From: Pyrenula massariospora
Taxonomy: Eukaryota > Ascomycota > Eurotiomycetes > Pyrenulales > Pyrenulaceae
Assembly (NCBI GenBank): GCA_021030905.1
Contig: JAGFMI010000004.1
Coordinates: 1,798,001-1,862,000, forward strand
Reading direction: 5' to 3'
DNA: 64,000 nucleotides
Under the pieces are notes generated by a model. The model saw only the letters and a list, made by a program, of their open reading frames with translations, was not told the DNA's origin and did no database searches. The position numbers and the translations under genes were made by a program. Of this stretch, positions 819 to 62,026 are shown piece by piece. Position 1 is the stretch's first letter. Each line of letters opens with the position of its first letter.

Positions 819-2108
819 ATGTCGGACCAACCCTTGAACGAGAAGTCCGTCACGGATGCTTCGGGTCAGGGTGAATATGAAAATTACGAGCTACAGACCA
901 ACGGCCACACACGGTCACCTACGAAAGAGTCGAATCCAAGCTCCTCAGCTACCTCAAACGAACCCCCAACTGCGGAGCCCGTACCTGCTCAAATCCCTCG
1001 CAACCAAGCTACACCACACGCCCCGTTCCGCATAGCCAGCGATGAGAGCACATCTCGTGTTGGCGGGAGAAGAACATCAGAATGGGTTCGAGTGCCTGCG
1101 CCTCCACCGCTGCCATACTCGCTCTATGAACACAAATTGACAATTTCAATATTCTGGTTCTTGATCCTGGCAGAATCGTGCTTTATACCTATATCATTCT
1201 ACTACGGGCTATGGTTCGGAACAAATCTACGGCATGGAGCGCGTGAGTTTCCCTCACGCAACTTCTCATCTTCTACATTGGATTCGCACTAACCTCGTGG
1301 ATCTTGAACAGTATTCGCAATAATAACCTCCGTCTTCGGCTTCGTCACCGGCTACGAATACTGCATCCGCGGCTGGAAGCTCCTCAAGAAATCCCCCGAG
1401 TACCGCCCCCGCGGCTCCCCGCGCTGGGGCCTCGACACGGTGCAATGGTCCCTCTCCCTCCCCTACTTCTGCATGACCGTCATCCTCATCGCGGGCTCTA
1501 TCCCCACCGAGCCGCTCGTCCGCGTCCTCGCCATCCCGCTACCGATCGGCTTCATCCTGCTCGGCGTCTGGCTCTACGCCAGCGCCGTCATGTACCAGTT
1601 CAAGCTCAAGACCCCGATCCGACTCAGCAGCACGCCGAAGGGCGTCGTGGCTCCGCCGCTGGTGTACCACATCATCGAGGACGTGGTCGCGGTCGACGGC
1701 GGCGGGAAAGTGCGCTACCGCGACGCGCTGCACGACCGCTTCGAGGCGAGCCCGCGCTTCCGGCGCCTGCTGTGGCATCTGACCATGTTCTGGGGCCTGC
1801 CGACCGCGGTCATCGGCGCGGTGCTGCTCGCGCTCATTTTTACGGTCAAGAAGGAGGTCGCGTACGGGCTGGGCTGGGGCGTGCCGACGGTGTGGACGGC
1901 GATCTGGACGGTGATCACGATCGTGTGGGTAAGGGCGGAGTTAAGGCTCGAGCATGAGAAGTGGGGGGCGGAGGGTGGGGGGATGAGGTTTGGCCGGAGC
2001 CTGAGTCTGCCGGTTAGTGGGTGGCATTTGCCGGAGGGGGAGAGGCCGAGGGGATTTGTGGGCAGGATTAAGAGGTTGGGGAATCCGAGGAATCCGAGTG
2101 TGAGTTGA
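819..2108 (+). CDS. Multi-pass membrane protein of unknown function
   Basis: Two exons (819..1242 and 1312..2108) joined across a 69-bp GTGAGT...CAG intron in matching phase give about 406 residues. The first ~110 residues are polar, Ser/Pro/Thr-rich and probably cytosolic. After a short PPPLPYSLYEHK linker come about six hydrophobic segments: one before the intron, one just after it, a pair in the middle, and a pair around residues 300-345. The tail is basic. The start is the ATG opening MSDQPLNEK; frames upstream of it look non-coding. This architecture is common among uncharacterised Pezizomycotina integral membrane proteins. I recognise no catalytic motif and assign no function. GC content rises strongly in the second exon. 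Confidence 0.7.
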
Positions 2109-2320
2109 TGGGCTTGCGGGGGGTTGGGGTGGGATTTATTTTTGTGTATATGATACCCAGTGTCATTGGAAACGTTGTACTGTACACAGACCACAAGTGT
2201 CGAGTTTGAAGAGGTGGTGTGGCGGGTTTGTAATTAGGCTGTTGGAGTCCGTTCGCGGCTTTGGGAATATAAAGATACCACATATTTCTATTCTATACCG
2301 AAACTCGTCCTCAAAATATC

Positions 2321-4441
2321 CTACCCAACACGCTCACCTCCCATATCCCCCTCCCCCTCCCCACCCCCATTCTCTCCTCGCAACAACCTCTCCAAACCAA
2401 CCCCCAAATCCTCCCCCTCCCCCTCCCCCTCCTCCACCCCAACCAGCCTCAGCACCACCCTCGCATTCTCCCTCTCATACCTCCCCTCCCCTTCCCCCTC
2501 ACCCCCTACTATCTCGCTTACCTTCCCCCTAAACCCCCCATCCTCCCTTATCACCCTCAAAAACGCCCCCCTCCCCCGCCCCGTCTGCACAAGCACCCCC
2601 ACCGCCATCAAGCACTCCAGCCGCGCGCCCGCGTGCGGATGGTGCGCTATCACGTAGATCAACGGCTGCAGCAGCGACACGAATTCTGCGGCCGAGGATG
2701 AGACTGGGGGGAATAAAGCGTTGAGGATGGGGATGTAGGAGGATGGGGAGTGTTTTTTCAGGGTGCGGCACAGTTCTGCGATGGTGCGGGCGATTTCGGC
2801 TTTGAGGGTGGGGTTGTCTGTTGTGGTGGAGAGGGTGAGGGCTGTTGAGAGGGGGGTGGGGGTTTCTTGGGGTGGGGGTGGGAGGTGCCATTCCCCGTCA
2901 TCGGAGGAGGAGGAGGAGGGTTTGGTGAGGCCGGAGAATTGGAGGACGAGCGGGACCGAGTCTGTCATGACGGTTCGCGCGGCGCGGAGGGCGTCGAGCT
3001 GGTCGTCGGGCCAGGTGCGGGTCTGCCAGAGCGCGGCGAGGGAGGGGAGGATGGCGCAGGCGGCGAGGGCGGGTTTGGCGGTTGGGGAGGCTGAGCGGGA
3101 GATTGAGCTGAGGAGTTGGAGTTCGGCGCGGAGGGATTGGGAGGGGGGCGCGCGGCGGATGCGGGTTTGCAGGGCTTTGTGGAGGTCGTGGGAGATCATG
3201 AGGGTGGTGTTTGGCGCGTTTGTGAAGGCGCAGAGGATGAGGCAGCTGCAGACTATCTGTGGGTTGTCTGTTGAGGTGAGGAGATGGGTCTGGTAGCGGT
3301 GCCATATTTCTTGGCTTTCCAGGATCTCTTGGGGGAGCTTGCGGGCATTGGAGTATAAGGCTTCGATGAGGGTGTTGTGGACTTGTCTGCAGTGCGTGGC
3401 GGTGGCTTTGGTTTCGTCGTCGAACTCTTGAAGGTTTCCTGACGGTGAGGTTCTGTCTACATACCAGAATGATTTTACCACGACTTTGACGAATTCGTCA
3501 AGCAAAGAAATATTCCACTGTGTCATATCGAGGGTTTTGAGGGCGGCTAGACAGCAGTCTGCAATGGCGCAGAATTGGTCTGGTTCCCATTGCGTCGACG
3601 TTGTAGCTTGACATAGCTCGGTAAATTCTTCTGGGTTGGTCGTTCCACGGTGGCAGATCATTGCAAGTAGATCACAGAGACTTTCTTGGTTTTCGGAGCT
3701 GGCTGCTAGCTCTGACTGAAACGATCGAGTAGGACCGAGCAGTTTGACCAGCCCGTTGTTGCTTCTCAGCTGGTCCTGGGCAGGGTCTGTCAGGAGTGTT
3801 AGCATATTTTATGATGCTTCTAGGCGTGGTATCAGCAACGCTCCTAGAGGGATCTTGTGTACGCAAAAGTAGAAGACAAATGCCTCACCATAGTCAACAC
3901 AGATATTGTATAAGGCATTGAGGCAAAGACCCCAAAAAGTAACGTTTTGAGAGATTATGTTGGCCAACTTTTCCAGAGCACCGGCAGCTACCAGCACAGT
4001 TCTATTGTCGTTGCATCTCCTATCTTCCTCTGCCATTTGTAAGCAGAACAACGACAAATAGGTAAATTGCCAAGTCAGCTGCCCAAGTCATACCTTCGTC
4101 AATGCAGCTATTAGCCATCAACCGGACGGCCTGGACTATCACACCGGATATCTGCCGTTGACGATTATCCAGGCCGACATCAAGAGCCTGACAGCACGCC
4201 AGCAGAATTTCCCGATGATACATGCGTTTTCGCCATGTTTCTGTCTTCTATCAATCAACGCTTTGACCGGCGCGAGAGGATAGATTAAAGGCAGCATACC
4301 ACTGCGGCTGGCGTCCACTAGCTCGCTGAACAGTCTTTCAACCTCATATGGTTCAACAACGAGCAGGCGCTGGAGGGTAAGGCCAAGCACTTGGAGTTTC
4401 TGAGGTGCCGGCACAGGTCCCTCTCCGTTGAGATTTTCCAT
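2321..4441 (-). CDS. Armadillo-repeat protein, SmgGDS (RAP1GDS1)-like
   Basis: Four exons (4441..4300, 4240..4094, 4029..3889, 3786..2321) join in phase to 631 residues, close to the ~600 residues of animal SmgGDS. The sequence is almost entirely helical, with armadillo-like repeats. Examples are the stretch around GALEKLANIISQNVTFWGLC followed by LNALYNICVDYG, and the later FTELCQ, CLILCAFTNAPN and LLQPLIYVIAHH segments. In animals SmgGDS binds and chaperones prenylated small GTPases; fungal relatives are usually annotated only as GTP-binding proteins. The family call rests on repeat pattern and length, so a generic ARM protein remains possible. The last ~70 residues are very rich in Gly and Glu, encoded by a C-rich plus strand. 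Confidence 0.6.
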
Positions 4442-42989: not shown

Positions 42990-44598
42990 TTACCATTTTC
43001 CCTTGAGAAAAGATGGTCTTCCTCCAAGCCATACCAGTGAAGCGATCGCGGAAAGACCTGCAAGACAGGCAAGTGCGGCGTTCATATCGCCGTAACTAAA
43101 ATGTTGTCGAAGCGCTCCAGCTAAAGATGAACCCAGCATCATACCGGAATTGAATGCCATAAGATTGATGCCAAATAAGGAGGCGAATGGTCCATTCTCT
43201 CCAAACAGCACCGGATTTCTCCTATGGTACTCTTTCACGACCTTGCTTGTCTCCACAAAACTCGGCGTGCCCACCACAGCCAGTCCCAGACCTGAGAGGC
43301 CAAGCAGTGTGCAATAAAGACCGATATGGATTTGGCGTGGCTCTGATTGAACAAAACGAAAGAAAAATAATATCGGCGTCAAGAAAGAGAAGCCAACGAC
43401 GGCCACCGGCTTAGAGCCATAGCGGTCGACAGCCCAACCGCCAATGGGGACTGCGGCAAGCCTCAGTGCTCCTAGAGGTATGAAAAGCAATCCTGCTTGT
43501 AGCGCTGTGAAGTTGAAGAGACGGCTAGCTTCAAGTGGGATCGTGGCGTCAAACCCTCCCAGTATGGCGGACTGTGTGGCAGAGAGGGCGACTGCGGCTA
43601 TTAGCGAAGAGTGACGGAAGCATAGAAGGATCGGTGCGCTTCGCAAGATTCGCGATGTTGGTTTCTCCAAGAGATATTCCATTGAGTCTCCATCACTGTC
43701 AAGCATAGGTCGTGTCGCTGAGAATGATTCATCGTCCAACTCTTCGCGCTCTTCTGATCCTGAGGATCTATTGCTCTGGAGCTTAGCCTCTATATCTGCT
43801 CCTGCTCTGACGCCTTTCGACTTGTCCTCCATTGGGTGCTCATACTTAAGAGCGATCTTTTTCTCGACCAGGACTAGTCGCATCAGTAAATCCAAGAGAA
43901 GCAGCCCACCGGCGATAGCTGCAATGCCATAGAGACCACCAGTATCATACACAATACCACCAAGCGGGGGAGACAGAAGCGCCCCGACATTCACGAAGCC
44001 TAAAACCTATCCGCCAATAAGCAAATGTGAGACCACTATCGGCTCAGGAGCCAGAAGCTAGATTGAATCATACCATCCCAAGTGTCTTCCCCATGTTTTC
44101 CACGCCCACGGTGTCATAGCATATAGCAAAGCCGACGCTCCAGATAAGCGCCGAACTGAGTCCTTGGAAACACCTTGCAATAATTAAGGTGATAACTGAA
44201 TGACTGGTAAAGAAAATGACCGTTGACTAGATGGTTAGCGCGATAGCTGATGAAGTGGATGATTGTTTGAGGCTCACAGCTATTAACACGATTAGACCAA
44301 CGAGATACGGCGTCCTCCTCTGCTCCGATCGGTCTGCTATCGCTCCAACTACCGGAGAAAAAACAGCAGACGAGCCCGCATACGTAGCAAAAATAACAGA
44401 TGAGAATTTTTGCAAGTTTTCTTGGCTGACTCCAGCTCGGTCCTCGAGTACGAACGGCAAAACTGGTACCACCACTCCATACAGGAATGTTTCACTAAAG
44501 AGACCAATGATGACTGTTGAGACGATGAAGAGGGTATGTGAGCGCCAGGAGAGGCCCCGTGGTCGATAATTAACAGTGGTGTCTCCTCTTGGATCCAT
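42990..44598 (-). CDS. MFS transporter, drug/efflux type
   Basis: Three exons (44598..44278, 44226..44074, 44006..42990) join in phase 0 to 496 residues. Twelve TM helices are expected. Features are the TM1 region LFIVSTVIIGLFSETFLYGV, the A-like loop ADRSEQRRTPYL between TM2 and TM3, ARCFQGLSSALIWSVGFAI, NVGALLSPPLGGIVYD, and a central acidic hydrophilic loop (SGSEEREELDDES). The second half opens with APILLCFRHSS and has DRYGSKPVAVVGF. This resembles fungal DHA1 efflux pumps and vesicular amine transporter-like proteins. The position beside a RiPP-type precursor suggests product export, but it could equally serve the neighbouring ring-cleaving dioxygenase. Confidence 0.88.
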
Positions 44599-45017: not shown

Positions 45018-45469
45018 CTAGTTCTTGATAACCCCCCAAGACGCGTCCTCAGGATTGACAGCTCGTTTCTTGGTGTTGGCCCAAGATGCGTCCTCTGGAC
45101 TGAGAGCTCGCGCCTTGGTGTTCGCCCAAGACGCATCCTCCGGGCTCAGATCCCGTTCCTTGGTGTTAGCCCAAGATGCCTCCTCTGGCTTCAGCTCTCG
45201 CGCCTTGATGACTCCCCAAGACGCGTCTTCAGGAGTGACCTCTCGTTTGGTGTTAGCCCAAGATGCGTCTTCTGGGCTCAAGCTTCGCGCCTTGGTGTTG
45301 GCCCAAGATGCGTCCTCTGGGCTCAAGCTTCGCGCCTTGGTGTTGGCCCAAGATGCGTCCTCTGGGCTCAGACTTCGTGCCTTGGTGTTAGCCCAAGAGG
45401 CATCTTCCGGGCTCAGACTTCGAGCCTTGGTGTTAGCCCAAGAGGCCTCTTCTGGGCTTAGATCACGGG
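45018..45469 (-). repeat. Ten-unit coding tandem repeat, ~45-bp period
   Basis: Units are 45 bp (42 bp for the unit ending in K-R) and encode x-x-[SKTN]-P-E-[DE]-A-S-W-x-x-x-K-(x)-R. Invariant residues are P, E, A, S, W and the Lys near the unit end. Third-position changes are scattered between units except in the identical neighbours 3 and 4, so the array mixes old divergence with recent homogenisation. Confidence 0.9.
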
Positions 45470-45597
45470 CTTAAACTGTTTAGCATTCGACATCTCAAAT
45501 CCTGTGAAGCAAATCTATTCAACGTACAGTTAAGTGGAAGGGCATAAGCTGATGCAGCCAAGGCGGCAAGTAGAACAACTTTGTTGGATAACTGCAT
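45018..45597 (-). CDS. Secreted tandem-repeat RiPP precursor (dikaritin-like), W-led cores
   Basis: Two exons (45597..45528 and 45469..45018) give 173 residues. The acceptor is fixed by frame: an earlier AG would create a stop. The signal peptide is MQLSNKVVLLAALAASAYA. Ten repeats of ~15 residues follow, of the form xLSPEDASWANTKAR. Eight contain W-A-N-T (repeats 1-5 and 7-9) and two contain W-G-V-I (repeats 6 and 10). Repeat ends are K-A-R mostly, K-R after repeat 5, K-E-R after 7, K-K-R after 9, and KN at the C-terminus. Dikaritin precursors such as UstA have this design: acidic spacer, aromatic-led tetrapeptide, basic cleavage site. Two UstYa-type genes lie within 6 kb. Repeats 3 and 4 are identical at the nucleotide level, indicating recent duplication. 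The cyclic-peptide product is inferred. Confidence 0.85.
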
Positions 45598-47071: not shown

Positions 47072-48100
47072 ATGAAGAATCAATGGAAACACCCGTTAAA
47101 GTTCGATTATGCTCCGGTACACCAGAAAGACGGTCAAGTCGAGCTCGAGGTATGGTCCCAAGTTTCACATCGTCGAGGCAGGCATATTGACAACGCCATT
47201 ATGGTAGGATCCAGAGCTGCAAAGACACAAGACCCTAAGCAAGATTAGCATAGTATTGTACATCAGCTTGTCATTCAATATCTTGTTTTCTCTACTTCTC
47301 ACATTCAACTTTCTCAATCCCCGACAATCCTCTCCGAATGAAATCTTAAAAGGAACTAGCACATTTTGTGAGTGTTGATGTATGAAGGAAGGCTAGGTCT
47401 AATGCTAAGACTCCTTGATATAGCTCCATTATTTGAAGAGATCAGCTTCAGTTTTCACGATGATATGATTGATATACCCGTCTTCAACAACCCACGCACC
47501 ATCTACCGAGATCCTCCGTCCCCGGAGGTAGATGCAGCATGGGAACGAGTTGCAGAAATGGGAATCTTTACGATTTCTGGAGAACAAGTGAAGCGCCTTG
47601 GCAAAGATCCCGAAACTGCTGCTCGAGCACCTCCTGAATGGGGTCGCGGAGACGACGCTTATTTGGCACGCCTCCAGGGCCAGCATAACCTGCACTGTCT
47701 TAATACGATTAGGAAGTTCAGCTTCTTTTCGTATTACTACGGAGACGAGGCTTTTGGTGCCAACAAGAGCACGCTTGACATGCCGCTCTTTGAGAGATCA
47801 CACCACACGCACTGTCTGTATACGGTCCTCCTGGCGCTGATGTGCCAGCCGAACATGAACATGTTTACGGATATGTGGGTGGAGGAAGGCCATAGGCCAT
47901 GGGCAGACTATGCAGTGAATCGCAAATGCGTTAATCATGATGCAATCCTGGACTGGCAGAGGGAGAACGCTTGGATTGATGTGGAAATGTTAGACTCTAT
48001 GCGGCCACCCCCTGGTACGAAGTTTGCCCCTGTACCAGAGGAACTGGCGGTCGGCGACCAAGAACATTATGTGGAAGGCTGCGATGGACGCTGCGGGTAG
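47072..48100 (+). CDS. UstYa-type (DUF3328) RiPP macrocyclisation enzyme, copy 1
   Basis: Three exons (47072..47149, 47208..47367, 47424..48100) join in phase to 304 residues. The short polar N-terminus (MKNQWKHPLKFDYAPVHQKD) is followed by one TM helix (~35-60; IVLYISLSFNILFSLLLTFN). The body has PPSPEVDAAWERV and the two family-defining motifs HNLHC (167-171) and HHTHC (206-210), the latter followed by LYTVLLALMCQPN. UstYa/UstYb proteins catalyse oxidative side-chain macrocyclisation of dikaritin cores in the secretory pathway, with the HxxHC pairs presumed to bind copper. It starts divergently from the repeat precursor 1.5 kb away, which supports a joint role. Confidence 0.88.
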
Positions 48101-48364: not shown

Positions 48365-48892
48365 ATGGAGCACAGAAAGTACAAGTACAGATCCTTTATC
48401 GAGCGCAGTCTAGGTAAGACAAAAACACAATAAATTGCAAAAAAGTGCTCAACTAGCCCTTTCTGACCCCCTAACCTAGCTGCCCTCAGCGCCTCCGACA
48501 TCGACACCTTCCTCAACCCCGCCCACTACACCCGCACCTTCACCAAGCACCTCCTCCCCGACTCCATGGACGTGCCCCCCGAATCCCTCTCTGAATGGCG
48601 CGCCGACCTCACGACCGGCTTCGTCGGCCAGAACTACGCGTCCAGCGAGGCGCGCATCCTGCACTACTGGGAGGATGTGGGCGAGCGGAGCGCGTTGGTG
48701 TGGTGTGGCGAGAAGGGGGAGTTGGTGGATGGGGAGGTGTATAAGATGGAGTATGTGATGATGTATGAGTTTGATGGGGAGGGGAGGGTGGAGAGGATTG
48801 TGGAGATGACGGATTCGGCGTTGCAGAAGGGGATTTATGAGAGGTGGATGGCGAGGGTTGGGGGGGAGGACGGGGCGGAAGGGAAATATTGA
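48365..48892 (+). CDS. SnoaL/NTF2-like small protein
   Basis: Two exons (48365..48413, 48480..48892) join in phase to 153 residues. The length and order (helical start RSFIERSLAALSASDIDTFL, then strands RILHYWEDVGERSALVWC, YKMEYVMMYEFDGEGRVERI and a C-terminal helix EMTDSALQKGIYERWMARV) fit the cone-shaped NTF2/SnoaL fold. Fungal clusters often include such proteins as cyclases, isomerases or dehydratases, but catalytic residues vary, so function cannot be read. It lies on the same strand between the UstYa-type gene and the sulfotransferase-like gene, with 264 and 178 bp gaps, suggesting co-regulation. Confidence 0.6.
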
Positions 48893-49070: not shown

Positions 49071-50057
49071 ATGGAGAATTCCAGTGGTCGCCATATCCTG
49101 CTCATGACTCATCCCCGTTCCGCGTCGAACTTGCTCGTCCGCATACTAAATCTTGAAAACCAGCCCAGCGTCCTCTCCCGAGAAAGTGGGGGGTACTTCT
49201 TTCTACCCACCGTCTTGCTGAGCAACACCCTTGGAAATCGTGGACTTCCAATCTCAAAATGGCAAAACTTTCAACGTCTAGAAATGCAAGACTCCTACCA
49301 AACCTGCTTCGACGATCTCGAGCGTCACCTCTCTGCCGCGGAAACGCAGGGAAAAGTGGCCTTCGTCAAGGAACACGCAGAGTTCATGATCGAGCCTACC
49401 GCGCAGACCCGATTTATCTACGGGACTGAAGCTGTAGACGAACTGCCGTGGTCTGTCAGTCTGCCGCCAGCACTCGGTACAGATCCGACTCACTCATCTC
49501 TGAACGAGACGGTCCTACCAGACGCGTTCCTCCGACTCTGGCGGCCCGTGTTTCTCATCCGGCATCCGCTGCTGGTCTTCCCGTCGCATCTGCGTGCGAT
49601 CAGGGATACGGACGGCGTCGCCGCGACGCAGGATGAGAATGAGATGAAGGCAATCATGACGCTGCACTGGTCGCGGAGACTTTATGACTTTTATGCTGGT
49701 GAAGGGCGGGATCCGATCGTGCTTGAGGCGGACGATGTCATGACGGAGCCGCGGCTGGTTAGGTATTTCTGCGAACTGGTGGGTTTGGATCCGCAAATTT
49801 GTCGGTTTCGGTGGGAGCCTAAGAATGGTGACACGGGTGAAGATCCGTTAATACGCAGATTTCAGTCTACGATATCCGAATCATCGGGGATCGTGGGTGG
49901 GAAGACGGCACACGGGTTAGATATGGTGGTGGAGTTTGAGAAGTGGAAGCTGGAGTTTGGTGAAGAAGAGGCTGTGAGGCTTCAGCAGTGGGTGAAGGGA
50001 GCGATGGCAGACTACGAGTTTCTCAGTGGTAGAAAATTGAAAGCTGGTGGGCTCTGA
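49071..50057 (+). CDS. Sulfotransferase-like P-loop protein
   Basis: Single exon, 328 residues. The N-terminal strand-loop ILLMTHPRSASNLLVRIL matches the 5'-phosphosulfate-binding loop of sulfotransferases, and PVFLIRHPLLVFPSHLRAIR resembles the second (3'-phosphate) site with its R-x-P pattern. The fold ends with LSGRKLKAGG. Fungal genomes carry many such proteins, often annotated only as P-loop NTPase or sulfotransferase family, and few are characterised. In this locus it might sulfate a RiPP or a hydroxylated side chain. No signal peptide is present, so it would act in the cytosol unless the substrate is reached before secretion. The PAPS dependence is inferred. Confidence 0.7.
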   Translation: MENSSGRHILLMTHPRSASNLLVRILNLENQPSVLSRESGGYFFLPTVLLSNTLGNRGLPISKWQNFQRLEMQDSYQTCFDDLERHLSAAETQGKVAFVKEHAEFMIEPTAQTRFIYGTEAVDELPWSVSLPPALGTDPTHSSLNETVLPDAFLRLWRPVFLIRHPLLVFPSHLRAIRDTDGVAATQDENEMKAIMTLHWSRRLYDFYAGEGRDPIVLEADDVMTEPRLVRYFCELVGLDPQICRFRWEPKNGDTGEDPLIRRFQSTISESSGIVGGKTAHGLDMVVEFEKWKLEFGEEEAVRLQQWVKGAMADYEFLSGRKLKAGGL

Positions 50058-50133: not shown

Positions 50134-51133
50134 CTAGTCTTCTATTGAAATGTGCGACAAATTCCTCGGCGGATTGTGATGCTTAGCCACCCATTCCCTT
50201 ACAGCATTGGGATCTTTGCATCGTCTATGTGGTACCCCATAACCTTCAACCATGACTCGGCTACCATCATCCTCTGTCACAGCCCACTCAGCGGACAAGT
50301 CTGCGCTACACTGTATTCCCTGAGCGAGGTATCCAAGACAATGATGTGGGTGATTGTTCTCGAGCTGGTCTTCAACTAGCTGCTTCTTTGTCTCATCTGA
50401 TGCCCCGTCGCGAATAGCATTGACCAGGTTCCAGTAGAATTTTCTCATGACCGCCTACAGGAGTCAAAACGTGAAATTTGTCCAATATCTGAAAGAACTT
50501 ACCACGCAATGTAGCTGATGATACATAGAAAGGAGAAAACCATCGTCTCCTGTTGGAGTCGTGATTCCTGGTTGTAGACCGTAGTCTTCGTAATTTGGAA
50601 TTTTGACAAATCCCTTACCAGCTGTTCATTGTCAGCTTGTTGAGCAAGTTGGGGATTCTGATCACCTACGTGGCGTTAGAGCATCCCAAAATGGCTGGTT
50701 TTTCTCATTTGGAGGTTCGAAAAGCTCTTTGATTTCTTCAAAGGTTACTGTCGCTTCTGGTACTGTACAATTATCAACAAGCGAACATCGAGGCCAAATA
50801 GACATACTCACTTCGTGGTGCAAAGTCTTTATGTGATGATAATGTCGATGGAGGTGAGCCTTGTAATGTCCATGTCCCTATGGATCCAATTACGACACCC
50901 ACGAGAAGGATGAATAAAACCCATATTTTATTTATGCCATGTCGAGGTCGTTGTCTAATATGAGGGCATTCCAAATTTCCTTTCTCCAGAAAACCGTCAT
51001 CTGAGGATGGATCTTCATTGTTGATAAGATCTGTTTGTTCCTCAGCAAAACGGTTATCGTTGGATCCGACAAAAGCAGCTCTATCGAGACTTCCAGGCCG
51101 CCGACCAAGTGGGCTCTTCAACCCCATGAACAT
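50134..51133 (-). CDS. UstYa-type (DUF3328) RiPP macrocyclisation enzyme, copy 2
   Basis: Four exons (51133..50812, 50762..50670, 50621..50503, 50454..50134) join in phase to 284 residues. The open frame continues upstream to a GTG, but the first ATG is at 51133. A ~70-residue cytosolic part is followed by one TM helix (IWVLFILLVGVVIGSIGTW). The lumenal part has the PPNEKNQPFWDALTP and GFVKIPNYEDYGL blocks and the paired motifs HQLHC (~173-177) and HPHHC (213-217), the latter followed by LGYLAQGIQCSADLSAEW. This is the second family member; dikaritin loci usually encode two or more, each acting at a different cyclisation or oxidation step. It diverges clearly from copy 1, so the pair is not a recent duplication. 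Confidence 0.88.
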
Positions 51134-52725: not shown

Positions 52726-53846
52726 ATGCCTGGTCAAATTATTCAAACTCAGAGTGACTATGAACAACCCGCAAATATACCTGTTATAGACTTCGCTTTA
52801 CTCCAAGGCGGCCTTAAAGAGCGAGCTGTTGCACTGAAACAGCTTGATGAAGCTTTCCAATCTCAAGGCTTCATCTATTTGGCAAACCACAGCATCCCGC
52901 AAAAGACTGTCGACGAAGCGTTCGAATGGGTTCGTAATTGTACCAATACCATTTCGAGCCAAAGGTTAATCTTTAACAGTCCAAACGGTTCTTCAAACTA
53001 CCACATCACCTCAAGCAGCTCATCGCGCACCCTCCAAGCGGAGAGCTCGAGGCTCACCGTGGCTTCGCCGAGGTCGGCCTTGCGCTTGTCAGCCAACTCG
53101 TCTGGGACCGCGATGAAGTTGCCGAGCTTCGCAAGACCTCTCCAGAGATGAAGGAGACGCTTGAATGGGGCAATCCAGCGGATACGACCTCACCAAACCG
53201 TTGGTTACCCGAGGATATCCTGCCAGGCTTCCGTAGCTTCATGGAGTCGTGGTGGGACGCATGCGTAAATCTAGAGCATGCGTTGCTCCGCAGCTTGGCT
53301 GAAGCCCTGCAGCTTGCAGATGTCGATCATCTGGCCAAGAACCAGACCAAGGACACCTGCCACATGAGCATGGCGTACTATCCTTCCATGCCGGTCTCGC
53401 CGTTGAAGAATCGAGAGCTACGTCGGCTGAACGCGCACACGGATTTCGGACAGCTGACACTGCTGTTCCAGGACATGGTCGGCGGACTTGAGGTCCATGA
53501 CGGCAAGGTGTTCCGCCCAGTGATACCGAAGCCCGGGACTGTCGTCATCAATGTCGGAGACATGCTGGAGCGGCAGTCAAACGGGCGCTGGAAGAGCGCT
53601 TTGCATCAAGTGGCAGCTCCAAGGGAAGCAATGTGTGCGTTCGACAGCAATGATTACGGGGAGGATACGGAAAAGGTTGTGGATCGGTATTCGATCATTT
53701 TCTTTGGCACACCGGATCCGGACTCAATTGTAGATACACTGCCAGGCTGCGAAAAGGGCAAATGGAAACAAAATATGGTGGGGGAATGGAACGTGAAGAT
53801 AACAGCAGCAGAGTGGGTTCAGAAACGACTTGCGGCGGAGTACTAG
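52726..53846 (+). CDS. Fe(II)/2-oxoglutarate-dependent oxygenase (isopenicillin N synthase family)
   Basis: Two exons (52726..52929, 52980..53846) join in phase to 356 residues. The N-terminal DIOX_N part has IPVIDFALLQGGLKERAVAL, LDEAFQSQGFIYLANHSIP and SKRFFKLPHHLKQL. The double-stranded helix carries the metal triad His221 and Asp223 (NAHTDFGQLTLLFQD) and His277 (SALHQV), with Arg304-x-Ser306 (DRYSII) for 2-oxoglutarate. Such enzymes hydroxylate, desaturate or epimerise small molecules, alkaloids and peptides in fungal clusters. No signal peptide. The donor of the intron, GTTCGT, is unusual but gives the only continuous domain. Confidence 0.88.
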
Positions 53847-56873: not shown

Positions 56874-58853
56874 ATGTCTCCCATCGAAGTTTCATCTTTG
56901 CAAATAATACTGTTGATTCTTCTGTCATTACTAGTCTACTATGCTGTTGTTGCCGTCTATAGGATATTTTTTCACCCGCTGAGCCGCTTTCCTGGGCCTT
57001 CACTAGCAGCAGCATCCATATTTTACCGAGCGTATTATCAAGTTTGGAGAGACGGTGACCATGTTGCTCAATTTACTAGACTTCACGATGTACATGGTAA
57101 TTGTGTCGTGTCTTATAAGTTGTCTAACAAGAAACTGACTCAAGAGAAAGGGCCCGTGATTCGGATTGCACCAAACACTGTCAGTACCTTCCCCTAGTAT
57201 CGTACGATCTACTCTCATGGATCTTGCAGCTACACTTCCGCAATCCAAGAGCTTTCAATGACATCTTTAAATTCTCGTCGAAGTTCACCAAAGATGGCGA
57301 CTTCTACGACCACCTTGGCCAGTCCGAAGCCCTCTTCGGAATGGTAGACGAAGAGGAACATAAGAAACGCTTCAGGCTTGTTGCGGATCTATTCTCCAAA
57401 AAGTTTTCTCAAGATTTTGAGCCTCTCATACATAGCAATGTTTGTGACTATCACCTTGTTCTCCTTCACAATGTTACTAATCACTTCTGAGAGACTAACA
57501 GGCGAATCGATTATGCTATCTGCTAGCCATCAATGCAAGAAATGGACCGACAAACATTGCTCGAGGTCTTCGAGCTGTCGCGTTAGATATCGTACAGGAA
57601 TTCGTATTTGATTTTGTTCCTCCGCATTTACGTGGTCTTCGAGACGAGAGATTTGACACTTTGTTTGTTGACACGACTTTTGATGTTATGGACTGGACAG
57701 CATGGTGCTTTCGCAATTTCCCTTTCACGTTGAATCTTTCAAACTATACTCCGCAGTGGCTGCGGCGACACATCCTGCCAGGAGAGGCGGCTAATATCGA
57801 GTCGTTTACCGTGAGTCTATTCTTCTCGGCGATTTGTATTCTTGCGGACGGCCACCAAAGATGTCCTAAATTGCTAACAAGACTTTGGAATTTACAGACA
57901 ATCCTTGACTTGGTCAACAGCAACGTCGCCTCTGGTCCCAGCTGGAAACGCGATAGTCTTCTCGGTCGCATGGCCAACAAAGTCACACTCACATCGCTGA
58001 CTTCAGAATGTATGGGAACTATGTTTGGAGGAGTGATCAATTTAGCGAATATGCTACCGTACGGCGTATTTATGGCATGTGATGTCGCTGGAATGCAGGA
58101 GCAGCTCTTCCGAGAATTGCGTTCGGTATGGCCGAGACTCGAAAGTCCCACTCCACCGTATGAGGTATTGAAGGAACTACCACTTCTTGTAGGGCTCTCG
58201 AGATCATAGTGATTGTAAAATCGTACTGACTCCAGCGCAGAACGGTATTGTCAACGAGACTCTGAGACATATGCACGGCATTATTACCGGGCCTCCTCGA
58301 GTAGTACCTTCTCCAGGAGCGGAAATTGATGGCCATTTCATCCCCGCAAAGGTAATGACTCCCAGTCGTCTCGTTGAACGGTCAAGAGCATGAGCTGATA
58401 TTTACCAGACGGTGGTCAGTACATCCTCACTGTACAGCCATATGAATCCGGAGGTGTTTCCCGAGCCTGAAGACTTCAAGCCCGAACGCTGGCTACATCC
58501 AACACCAGAGATGGAGCGGTCATTGGTGCCATTCTCAAAGGGCCGACGAATGTGTCCTGGCAAAGAGTAAGTGGTCCGGTGTACCTGAGCGCCCGGCATT
58601 CATCAACTGCTTTACTGACCCCGCCGAAATCCAGAATCTCTTTGATGGAACTCTACATCGTCTTCGCCGCTCTCTTCAGACGATTCGAAATCACAATCTA
58701 CAACACTACGTACGTATTGACTATCCATCTGCTGTCTGTCCTCGCTGATAAGGCTGGTATCCCAGACGTGAGGACTTTGACTGGAAAGTCTACATCTCCC
58801 TCCACTTCAAGGGGCGACCATTCCACGCCCATCTTCGCCAACGTACCGAATAG
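56874..58853 (+). CDS. Cytochrome P450 monooxygenase
   Basis: Nine exons (56874..57096, 57151..57179, 57230..57439, 57502..57810, 57898..58188, 58241..58351, 58409..58566, 58635..58709, 58766..58853) join in phase to 497 residues. An N-terminal ER anchor (LQIILLILLSLLVYYAVVAV) is followed by FFHPLSRFPGP. K-helix ETLR, the PERW-type motif FKPERWLHP and the heme loop PFSKGRRMCPGKE (F-x-x-G-x-R-x-C-x-G) are intact. The I-helix reads MFGGVINLANML, lacking the usual acid-alcohol (D/E-T) pair for oxygen activation. The N-terminal half resembles fungal CYP58/TRI4-like enzymes (FGMVDEEEHKKRFRLVADLF). One exon is only 29 nt. It is a candidate tailoring enzyme for the locus. Confidence 0.88.
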
Positions 58854-59969: not shown

Positions 59970-62026
59970 ATGCGACTTGATTGTCCTATGTTGGTCCTTT
60001 TCTTGGGCTTTTGGCAGCTGTCGACGCTTGCCCAAACTTACGTTGTCAAAGACGCACATCCAGCACCCACGACATGGAGGAAATTGAGATCTCCGCCGCC
60101 AGATCTCGTTCTTCCTTTGACAATAAGCCTCAGTCCCACAAAAGGTCATTCAAAGGGGATAGAAAAGACTTTGTTTGAAGGTAATTCACCCCTAACTTTC
60201 CTACTATAGCTTGTCTACCATTTTTGGGACTAAGCACTTGAATGTTTTGAAGGAGTCTTTGAATATGAGCAATGCACACTCTTAGAAGCATTTTCTGACG
60301 AAGTTGATTCCCAGTCTCGGATCCCGACTCACCTCGATACGGTCAACATGCTGGCAAGGCAGACATACAGAGCCTGATACAGCCAGCACCTGATGTATTG
60401 CAAGCCGTGCAGAATTGGCTTCTAGAGCACATTGAGCCCGAGAAGCTGAGATATGGAACTGCTCAATCCTCCATAAAAGTTGATTTGCCTTTGAATGCTG
60501 TAGAGTCCATTCTTCAAACAAAGTATTTCATCTTCGAAAATGATGATGGACATCAAATTGTGCGAACAGAGCAGTATTCGTTGCCTTCGCATTTGCATAG
60601 ATACGTTTCGGTCGTAACACCTACAAACCAATTTCTTCGATCGAAAACTCCAGCCATATTTGGGGGTTTACGGCAATCAAGACCTGTAATTGCACGGTCT
60701 GTAAATAGTTTGCGAATGCGTGCTCGCGATGCTGTGGGGAGCCAGTGTAACTTCACTTCAGTTACGTCAGGTTGCGTGAGGACATTGTATGGGACAGCAG
60801 ACTATCAAGCGAAAGTTCCTGAGAAAAACGGTGTTGGCTTTGCCAACTTCTTAGGCGAAGTTGCCATCAGGTCAGATGTTGGGCAATTTCTGAATACGCA
60901 ACGCCCGGACATAGACGCTAAAGGACCACTGTTCGACGAGGTGTCTATTGCCGCGGGGCCAATCAACAAGACAATTGCGGATCTTGATGTGGACGACTCG
61001 CTCGACGGTCGGGAAGCAAATCTCGACGCTGAGAACATTCTTGGTGAGCCTTCGTGTATGTATTGTAACTTATCCTCGCTGACCGTCAAAGGCATCGTCT
61101 GGCCGACTCGGTTGACTGCATACTCAACAGGAGGTATTACCCAACTGTTATTCCTTGCATTATTTCTCTGACAAGAGAAAGGTCTCAATCCCGAGTTCAC
61201 TCCAGATAATTATAGCACGACGAACTCGGACGAACCCTTCTTGACGTGGCTGGATTATCTCCTCGATGAAGAAGATATCCCACAGATCATCTCAATATCG
61301 TACACCGACAGTGAACAGACCGTATCTCAGTCGTATGCTACGCATGTTTGTGACCGCTTTGCCGCGCTTGGAGCTCGGGGCGTGACATTCCTGGCTGCCA
61401 GCGGAGACCACGGAGTTGGTCCCACAGGATACTGCTATTCGAACGACGGTCTCGGATCGAGAAGGTTCCTCCCAGGATTCCCAGCCGGCTGCCCGTACGT
61501 CACGAGCGTTGGGGCCACAGCGAACTATCCCGAGGTGGCGGCATACATTCCTAGCTCGAGGATACCGTTCACGTCCGGGGCAGGCTTCAGCAACTACTTT
61601 GGCCAACCAGACTGGCAGACATTAATTGTCGATGGATACTTGGCGAACATTAATGGCACGAACGATGGGCTGTTCAATCGCTCGGGTCGAGCCTACCCAG
61701 ACATTGCGGCTCTAGGCCAGACCTATGCGACCATTTACAACGGGAGCTTGATTCGCGGAACCGGAACCAGCGCTTCGACGCCGACAGCTGCAGGAGTATT
61801 AACATTAGTGAATGATGCTTTGATCAATGCTGGAAGGAGTCCTCTAGGATTTCTAAATCCTTGGTTGTATAAGTATGGCTACCGGGCTTTCACCGACGTG
61901 ACCGAGGGGAGTAGTGCTGGCTGCAATAGTAGTGGGTTTCCTGCTGCGCCAGGATGGGATGCGGTGACTGGGTTTGGCACACCATATCTGCCGAAAATAT
62001 TAGATATATTAGGTCTACCTACCTAG
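59970..62026 (+). CDS. Secreted sedolisin (S53) tripeptidyl-peptidase
   Basis: Four exons (59970..60180, 60315..61043, 61092..61133, 61182..62026) join in phase to 608 residues. A signal peptide (MRLDCPMLVLFLGFWQLSTL, then AQ) leads into a pro-domain with VSDPDSPRYGQHAGKADIQS. The mature enzyme has the S53 triad: Glu304 and Asp308 (DGREANLDAE) and Ser524 (GTGTSASTP), with the oxyanion Asp403 (AASGDHGVG). Ca-site residues near AFTDVTEGSSAGC and DAVTGFGTP follow. These acid proteases remove tripeptides from N-termini outside the cell or in the vacuole. It could trim RiPP peptides after the Arg cleavage or merely serve nutrition; linkage is by position only. Confidence 0.92.

Follow-up and report, generated by a model that had tools for sequence, protein, structure and literature searches.

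A tandem-repeat precursor gene with tryptophan-led predicted cores beside UstYa-family genes in Pyrenula massariospora

The window analyzed here (the whole 64,000-nucleotide stretch of Pyrenula massariospora DNA) quite likely holds a dikaritin-type RiPP cluster, that is, UstYa-linked and multi-core, with its precursor gene on the minus strand at 45018..45597. This confidence applies to the cluster as a whole and excludes the question of a ring. The gene has two exons and encodes 173 aa, based on open frames and a predicted splice, and the cluster is real, probably working, dikaritin-like, and provided with Trp where its relatives have Tyr. The plan of a secreted, multi-core, dikaritin-like precursor that was put forward in the original prediction gains support from neighbouring UstYa genes at 47072-48100 and 50134-51133.

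The first exon (45528..45597, MQLSNKVVLLAALAASAYALPLN) carries a predicted signal peptide, MQLSNKVVLLAALAASAYA, and the first mature residues, with a predicted cleavage site. Its start contains the hydrophobic stretch VVLLAALAASA (mean Kyte-Doolittle value of 2.5), and the peptide and its hydropathy agree with the ER signal peptide expected of a dikaritin / ust-RiPS precursor. A putative 58-base intron (45470..45527, minus strand, GTACGT...TTTAAG) joins the two reading frames, and exon 2 follows this intron and extends to the stop at 45018. The splice is needed because the signal peptide and the repeats would otherwise be unjoined, and the AAG acceptor is assumed because a nearer acceptor, ACAG, puts a stop in frame. 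The two-exon translation of 45018-45597 bears out the earlier call of a signal peptide followed by ten repeat units.

The repeats are under constraint at the protein level, with a pN/pS among the ten copies of 0.18 in the precursor frame, the lowest of the six frames. Its plus-strand mirror frame is also low (0.25, compared to 1.33-4.81 in the remaining four frames), so strand and frame are assigned with the further help of the signal peptide and the ATG at 45597; plus-strand ORFs covering the repeats begin with TTG. The plus-strand frame opposite the repeats (45022-45471) is open for 150 codons with the same periodicity, probably because the repeat is reflected on the other strand. An open mirror frame with low pN/pS, together with an AAG intron acceptor, could also be expected if the repeat had arisen by chance or were decaying and not a gene, but this is extremely improbable in light of the signal-peptide-like start, the protein-level constraint, and a shuffle control, in which none of 300 dinucleotide shuffles exceeded 0.17, compared to a best lag identity of 0.73 for the array. 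Tandem Repeats Finder (TRF) scored the array at 418, with 9.6 copies of 45 bases.

The array (45027..45440, minus strand) shows the tandem repetition of core units that is characteristic of dikaritin / ust-RiPS precursors. All ten units follow the plan PE(D/E)ASW-xxx-K, with K after every core, and the predicted cores are WANT in eight units and WGVI in units 6 and 10. The original description, ten copies of PEDASW-x-x-x-K-(x)-R, thus stands for the number of units and the two cores and requires amendment in its details: two of the ten units read PEEASW, and the final unit lacks Arg, ending KN-stop. Unit 1 joins the leader at S-R. The tripeptide following W changes en bloc (ANT or GVI) and PE(D/E)ASW and K are constant, a block switch between constant flanks that is expected of a core amid recognition sequences; the core limits, with predicted ends, are drawn from this switch after a fixed W. 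Cys is absent from the precursor, and beyond the signal peptide the only aromatic residues are Trp (W 10, F 0, Y 0, and H 0 in the mature part). A structural or cell-wall repeat protein would share the tandem repeats and the signal-peptide-like start, but is very improbable for a product of only 173 aa that lacks Cys, has a basic spacer at 9 of 9 internal junctions, and is encoded next to UstYa genes.

The nine internal junctions consist of KAR (six), KER, KR, and KKR (one each), such that two are dibasic (Kex2) and seven are K-A-R or K-E-R. This amends the K-(x)-R junctions named in the original prediction, which did not flag their mostly non-dibasic nature as unusual. Cleavage at dibasic sites would divide the precursor into fragments of 77, 57, and 14 residues. 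The KEP survey rule calls for at least three repeats between KR, KK, RK, or RR (PMC7329392) and, as worded in the accessible part of that survey, would probably miss this precursor because only 2/9 junctions are dibasic. According to PMC2515848, there is evidence that Kex2 also processes sites where P2 is another residue. Programs that search for precursors should accept K-x-R junctions if the reading holds.

The repeats could instead belong to a secreted precursor of linear, unmodified signalling peptides (pheromone- or effector-like), with the UstYa genes serving another purpose. Figures from the accessible part of the KEP survey give this some room, as the 15 genes nearest to a KEP include no UstYa gene in 78% of 7878 cases, and KEPs that lack a UstYa link often contain W (a W content rate of 24.5% for 6120 of them, compared to 20.5% for 1758 UstYa-linked precursors, so that W is not enriched by UstYa; PMC7329392). 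Additionally, the second dipeptide is x-P in 10/10 units, part of a possible Ste13-like peptidase substrate. The first dipeptide, however, is SL, EV, EL, DL, AL, or AV, and XA/XP, which directly follows the Kex2 site in ascomycete alpha-pheromone precursors, occurs in 0/10 units. Among the annotated pheromone KEPs of the same survey, UstYa genes are absent for 100% of the 227 yeast-type members and for 98.6% of the remaining 216 (PMC7329392), whereas two UstYa genes are adjacent here. Combined with the lack of Cys, these observations make linear signalling peptides unlikely, and the UstYa-linked RiPP cluster is the preferred reading.

The gene models for this neighbourhood were built by hand from open frames. 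Two UstYa-family genes lie inside 5.6 kb of the precursor, one of them adjoining, against a random expectation of about 0.018 UstYa genes within 6 kb of any point in the genome. Counting the genes modelled here, they are one and four places from the precursor; the published mean distance is 3.09 genes (PMC7329392, in the part available). UstYa-family protein 1 (47072..48100, plus strand, three predicted exons that, joined, match PF11807 at E 9.9e-48) has a membrane anchor and the motifs HNLHC and HHTHC, and UstYa-family protein 2 (50134..51133, minus strand, several exons with approximate borders that, joined, match PF11807 at E 6.7e-20) has HQLHC and HPHHC. Paired HxxHC motifs are thus found in both, as is expected of the UstYa proteins in a dikaritin / ust-RiPS cluster. 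UstYa 1 agrees at 19/19 columns that are invariant among 21 homologues, picked for their similarity to it, and differs at 2/11 nearly invariant columns. The lack of UstYa neighbours had been set beforehand as an observation that would count against the original prediction, and two such genes are present.

The remaining members include a likely exporter, an MFS transporter with several exons on the side of the precursor away from the UstYa genes (42990..44598, predicted ends, minus strand; two ORFs match PF07690, E 2.1e-19 and 4.7e-07), together with a 2OG-Fe(II) oxygenase with at least two exons (52726..53846, plus strand; PF03171, E 6.8e-17; PF14226, E 1.8e-12). A small protein (48365..48892, plus strand, 153 aa model) is without an assigned family, appearing SnoaL/NTF2-like by eye only, with no Pfam match and nothing at E 0.1 in a PDB search. 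A weakly sulfotransferase-like protein (49071..50057, plus strand) falls below the cut-off (PF13469, E 0.027), and the PDB search likewise returned nothing at E 0.1. Farther away, two adjoining ORFs at 60308-62023 (plus strand) match the pro-kumamolisin activation and subtilase domains and are probably one sedolisin-type protease; at ~15 kb from the precursor it was left out of the cluster. A weak P450-like stretch occurs at 57499-58206 (E 0.18); as the genome scan for P450 scored 92/262 candidates, a P450 may lie near the window. Rfam at the gathering threshold gave no match across the 64-kb window.

It should be noted that the window holds one of many UstYa loci in this genome. In the 37.8 Mb assembly, 82 UstYa exon matches correspond to about 57 genes at 44 loci (merged by distance), and 12 of the 44 have at least two genes. 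About 57 UstYa-family genes looks like many for one genome, this genome alone having been searched. Twenty-two UstYa regions out of the 44 loci were examined for precursors (the window, 20 taken mainly from the top of the list, and one more), and the simple repeat-finder was applied solely to UstYa-containing regions. The finder identified repeat precursors in 7/22 regions: the window, L017 (SYEGV), L018 (LWDSDGV), L026 (HIYAEYI), L032 (GFYLTE), L035 (PEYIYND), and L040 (AYTTV). Two further frames were discarded as the opposite strand of such precursor genes, and a looser scan adds repeats in L020 (HHQGK), L022 (Tyr and Trp), and L027 (GNYGNYG), so the finder's count is a lower bound. Trp is in every unit of two of the seven precursors (the window and L018), and among the listed precursor sequences only the window has mainly K-x-R junctions.

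Several of these loci are worth describing in their own right. The Trp-containing precursor of L018 (DSDAATLWDSDGVSE; 2829-3494, plus strand, contig C32) has five units with dibasic junctions and lies beside a UstYa gene. Two UstYa genes lie no more than a few kilobases from the Tyr-led precursor of L040 (PEVGYAYTTVEEKR; 2086-2730, minus strand, contig C11), as does a tyrosinase, a layout that, by analogy, resembles a classical ustiloxin-like cluster. An ORF of L020 (6679-7875, plus strand, contig C15) has repeated RHHQGK-type stretches near a UstYa gene, and di-histidine repeats next to UstYa genes are mentioned in the accessible part of the KEP survey (PMC7329392). UstYa 2 falls in a clade with the UstY genes of L040, L035, and L033 (FastTree support 0.957), of which those of L040 and L035 sit by repeat precursors; the finder detected no precursor at L033. 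UstYa 1 clusters with P0010, an Alternaria atra protein (support 0.95), and has 31-41% identity to most aligned homologues.

The five-gene definition of dikaritin clusters (Ding et al., cited in PMC12048977) includes a tyrosinase, for which the window has no match (24/24 genome candidates scored); clusters without a tyrosinase are not uncommon according to the part of PMC12048977 consulted. A tyrosinase occurs within 10 kb at 6/44 UstYa loci of the genome. Among the six other UstYa-linked precursors this is the case only at L040 (1.5 kb away), and the Tyr-bearing L017, L026, L032, and L035 have none within 10 kb. The absence of a tyrosinase as a pointer to a Trp pathway was consequently dropped, as 5/6 of the other precursors likewise have none within that distance, so that the lack of this gene does not single out Trp.

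Trp occupies the predicted cyclizing position in 10/10 units, a position that carries Tyr or Phe in dikaritin-type members elsewhere (PMC7329392 and PMC9233826, as far as the accessible parts extend). The claim that Trp has taken the place of a cyclizing Tyr finds a counterpart in the genome, in that the unit of L017 (xPQKASYEGVTE-KR) aligns to the window in a common frame, P-x-x-A-S-(W/Y), but the likeness does no more than hint at descent or at a recognition motif in common. When the L017 unit was shuffled identically in all copies, the observed score was reached in 30/2000 permutations for the whole protein, and in 583/20000 for a single unit. The whole-genome protein search from the window to L017 gave E 1.1e-4 and the reverse 3.2e-5, values that are inflated for tandem repeats. 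The two loci also share a unit of 14-15 residues and two UstYa genes nearby. Conversely, L017 is Tyr-led, has dibasic junctions, and belongs to another UstYa lineage. Paralogy of the two clusters, suggestive for the precursors, is not supported by the UstYa 1 tree, in which UstYa 1 stands apart from the UstYa genes of L017 and among proteins from other fungi (chosen by similarity). Simple duplication therefore does not account for the two clusters.

Under the preferred reading, the precursor protein would enter the ER, and its Trp-led stretches would be modified by the UstYa pair and perhaps also by the 2OG oxygenase. Cleavage after K-x-R/KR would be the work of a kexin-type or other protease, carboxypeptidases would remove Arg and Lys, and products derived from WANT and WGVI would leave through the MFS protein. 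The nature of the modification admits more than one version. A UstYa-linked RiPP with a core longer than WANT/WGVI, or with a change other than a ring (hydroxylation, chlorination, or sulfation), overlaps the preferred reading and is a serious contender, if somewhat below an even chance. UstYa-family proteins also hydroxylate and chlorinate and occur in non-RiPP clusters (PMC12048977, in the part available), so the presence of UstYa does not imply a ring. These several reported activities, the 2OG oxygenase and possible sulfotransferase of the cluster, and the AS before W, which is as conserved as W itself, are all consistent with a longer core or another modification; that only the three residues past W vary en bloc argues against it.

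Within the preferred UstYa-linked reading, any aromatic crosslink must use Trp because it is the sole aromatic residue of the mature part. A ring, if there is one, would extend from the Trp indole to core residue 3 or 4. In ustiloxin and phomopsin, Tyr is joined to Ile at position 3 (PMC7329392, accessible part). Residue 4 is beta-branched in WANT, WGVI, YEGV (L017), and YTTV (L040), with YEGV and YTTV being the cores of the Tyr-led pair of precursors to which sequence similarity led, and residue 3 of YEGV is Gly; residue 4 as the ring partner is slightly favoured on these core sequences. The idea is weakened, as the other four precursors, with core starts chosen by the analyst, do not have a beta-branched residue 4 (WDSD, YAEY, YLTE, and YIYN), leaving the pattern in only 2/6 of the other precursors. 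A tyrosine-free dikaritin-type pathway, in which UstYa proteins, with no tyrosinase involved, would tie the Trp indole to the side chain of residue 3 or 4 and K-x-R, in place of a dibasic signal, would free the cores, is therefore offered tentatively, as a possibility well short of even, its odds lowered by the loss of the tyrosinase contrast and by the 2/6 pattern. With Trp as the sole aromatic residue of its mature precursor, this compact cluster would allow indole coupling by UstYa proteins to be tested cleanly.

Clusters of this type are already numerous as predictions, and the chemistry described here is deduced from genes. A homologous precursor was not found at E 0.01 or better in a set of 5.8 billion proteins (2461 candidates). 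The leucine-rich-repeat ORF of the window has relatives in the same set from Pyrenula ochraceoflavens (53%) and Pyrenula sp. (46%), the best among 8000 word-sharing candidates scored; because the nearest relative in the set is distant, as judged by this one protein, the lack of precursor homologues is a weak sign of rarity. Counts for lichen fungi, drawn from partial texts, include 1,186 RiPP clusters across 111 lichen fungi (PMC12711211) and two UstY cluster clans of Parmeliaceae lichens in which no conserved repeats were found (PMC12048977). Tyr-based rings are described for ustiloxin, phomopsin, asperipin, and epichloecyclins, and victorin has a Phe-Leu ring (PMC9233826, accessible part). 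A Trp-crosslinked UstYa product was not found in the open-access literature searched, which included the accessible parts of PMC6339444 and PMC9769878 and did not extend to subscription papers.

Compared to ustiloxin and phomopsin, the precursor shares a signal peptide, tandem units, and short aromatic-led cores (YAIG, YVIG, and YVIP in the known systems; PMC7329392), as well as an acidic stretch before the core (EDYXI; PMC6339444), and UstYa-family genes, two in the ustiloxin and five in the phomopsin cluster, are present in the window too (all from the parts of these sources available). Unlike those systems, the window has Trp in place of Tyr, no mature Tyr, no tyrosinase match, junctions that are mostly K-x-R and not dibasic, and a 2OG oxygenase nearby. 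Within the genome, L018 (DSDAA(T/S)(L/F)WDSDG(V/I)SE) resembles the window in having Trp in all five units and a UstYa gene nearby, and differs in its longer acidic unit, dibasic junctions, and WDSD core. The novelty of a Trp core was overstated in the original prediction, as W-containing, UstYa-linked precursors were already catalogued (PMC7329392, accessible part). In particular, KEP type P-3 of Umemura 2020 (Fonsecaea, Cladophialophora, Galerina, Psilocybe, and Coprinellus), likened here by description and not by motif, also has W-containing repeats, with UstYa genes near 4/7 members (PMC7329392, same part), and one of its genera, Fonsecaea, belongs to the Chaetothyriomycetidae, as does Pyrenula.
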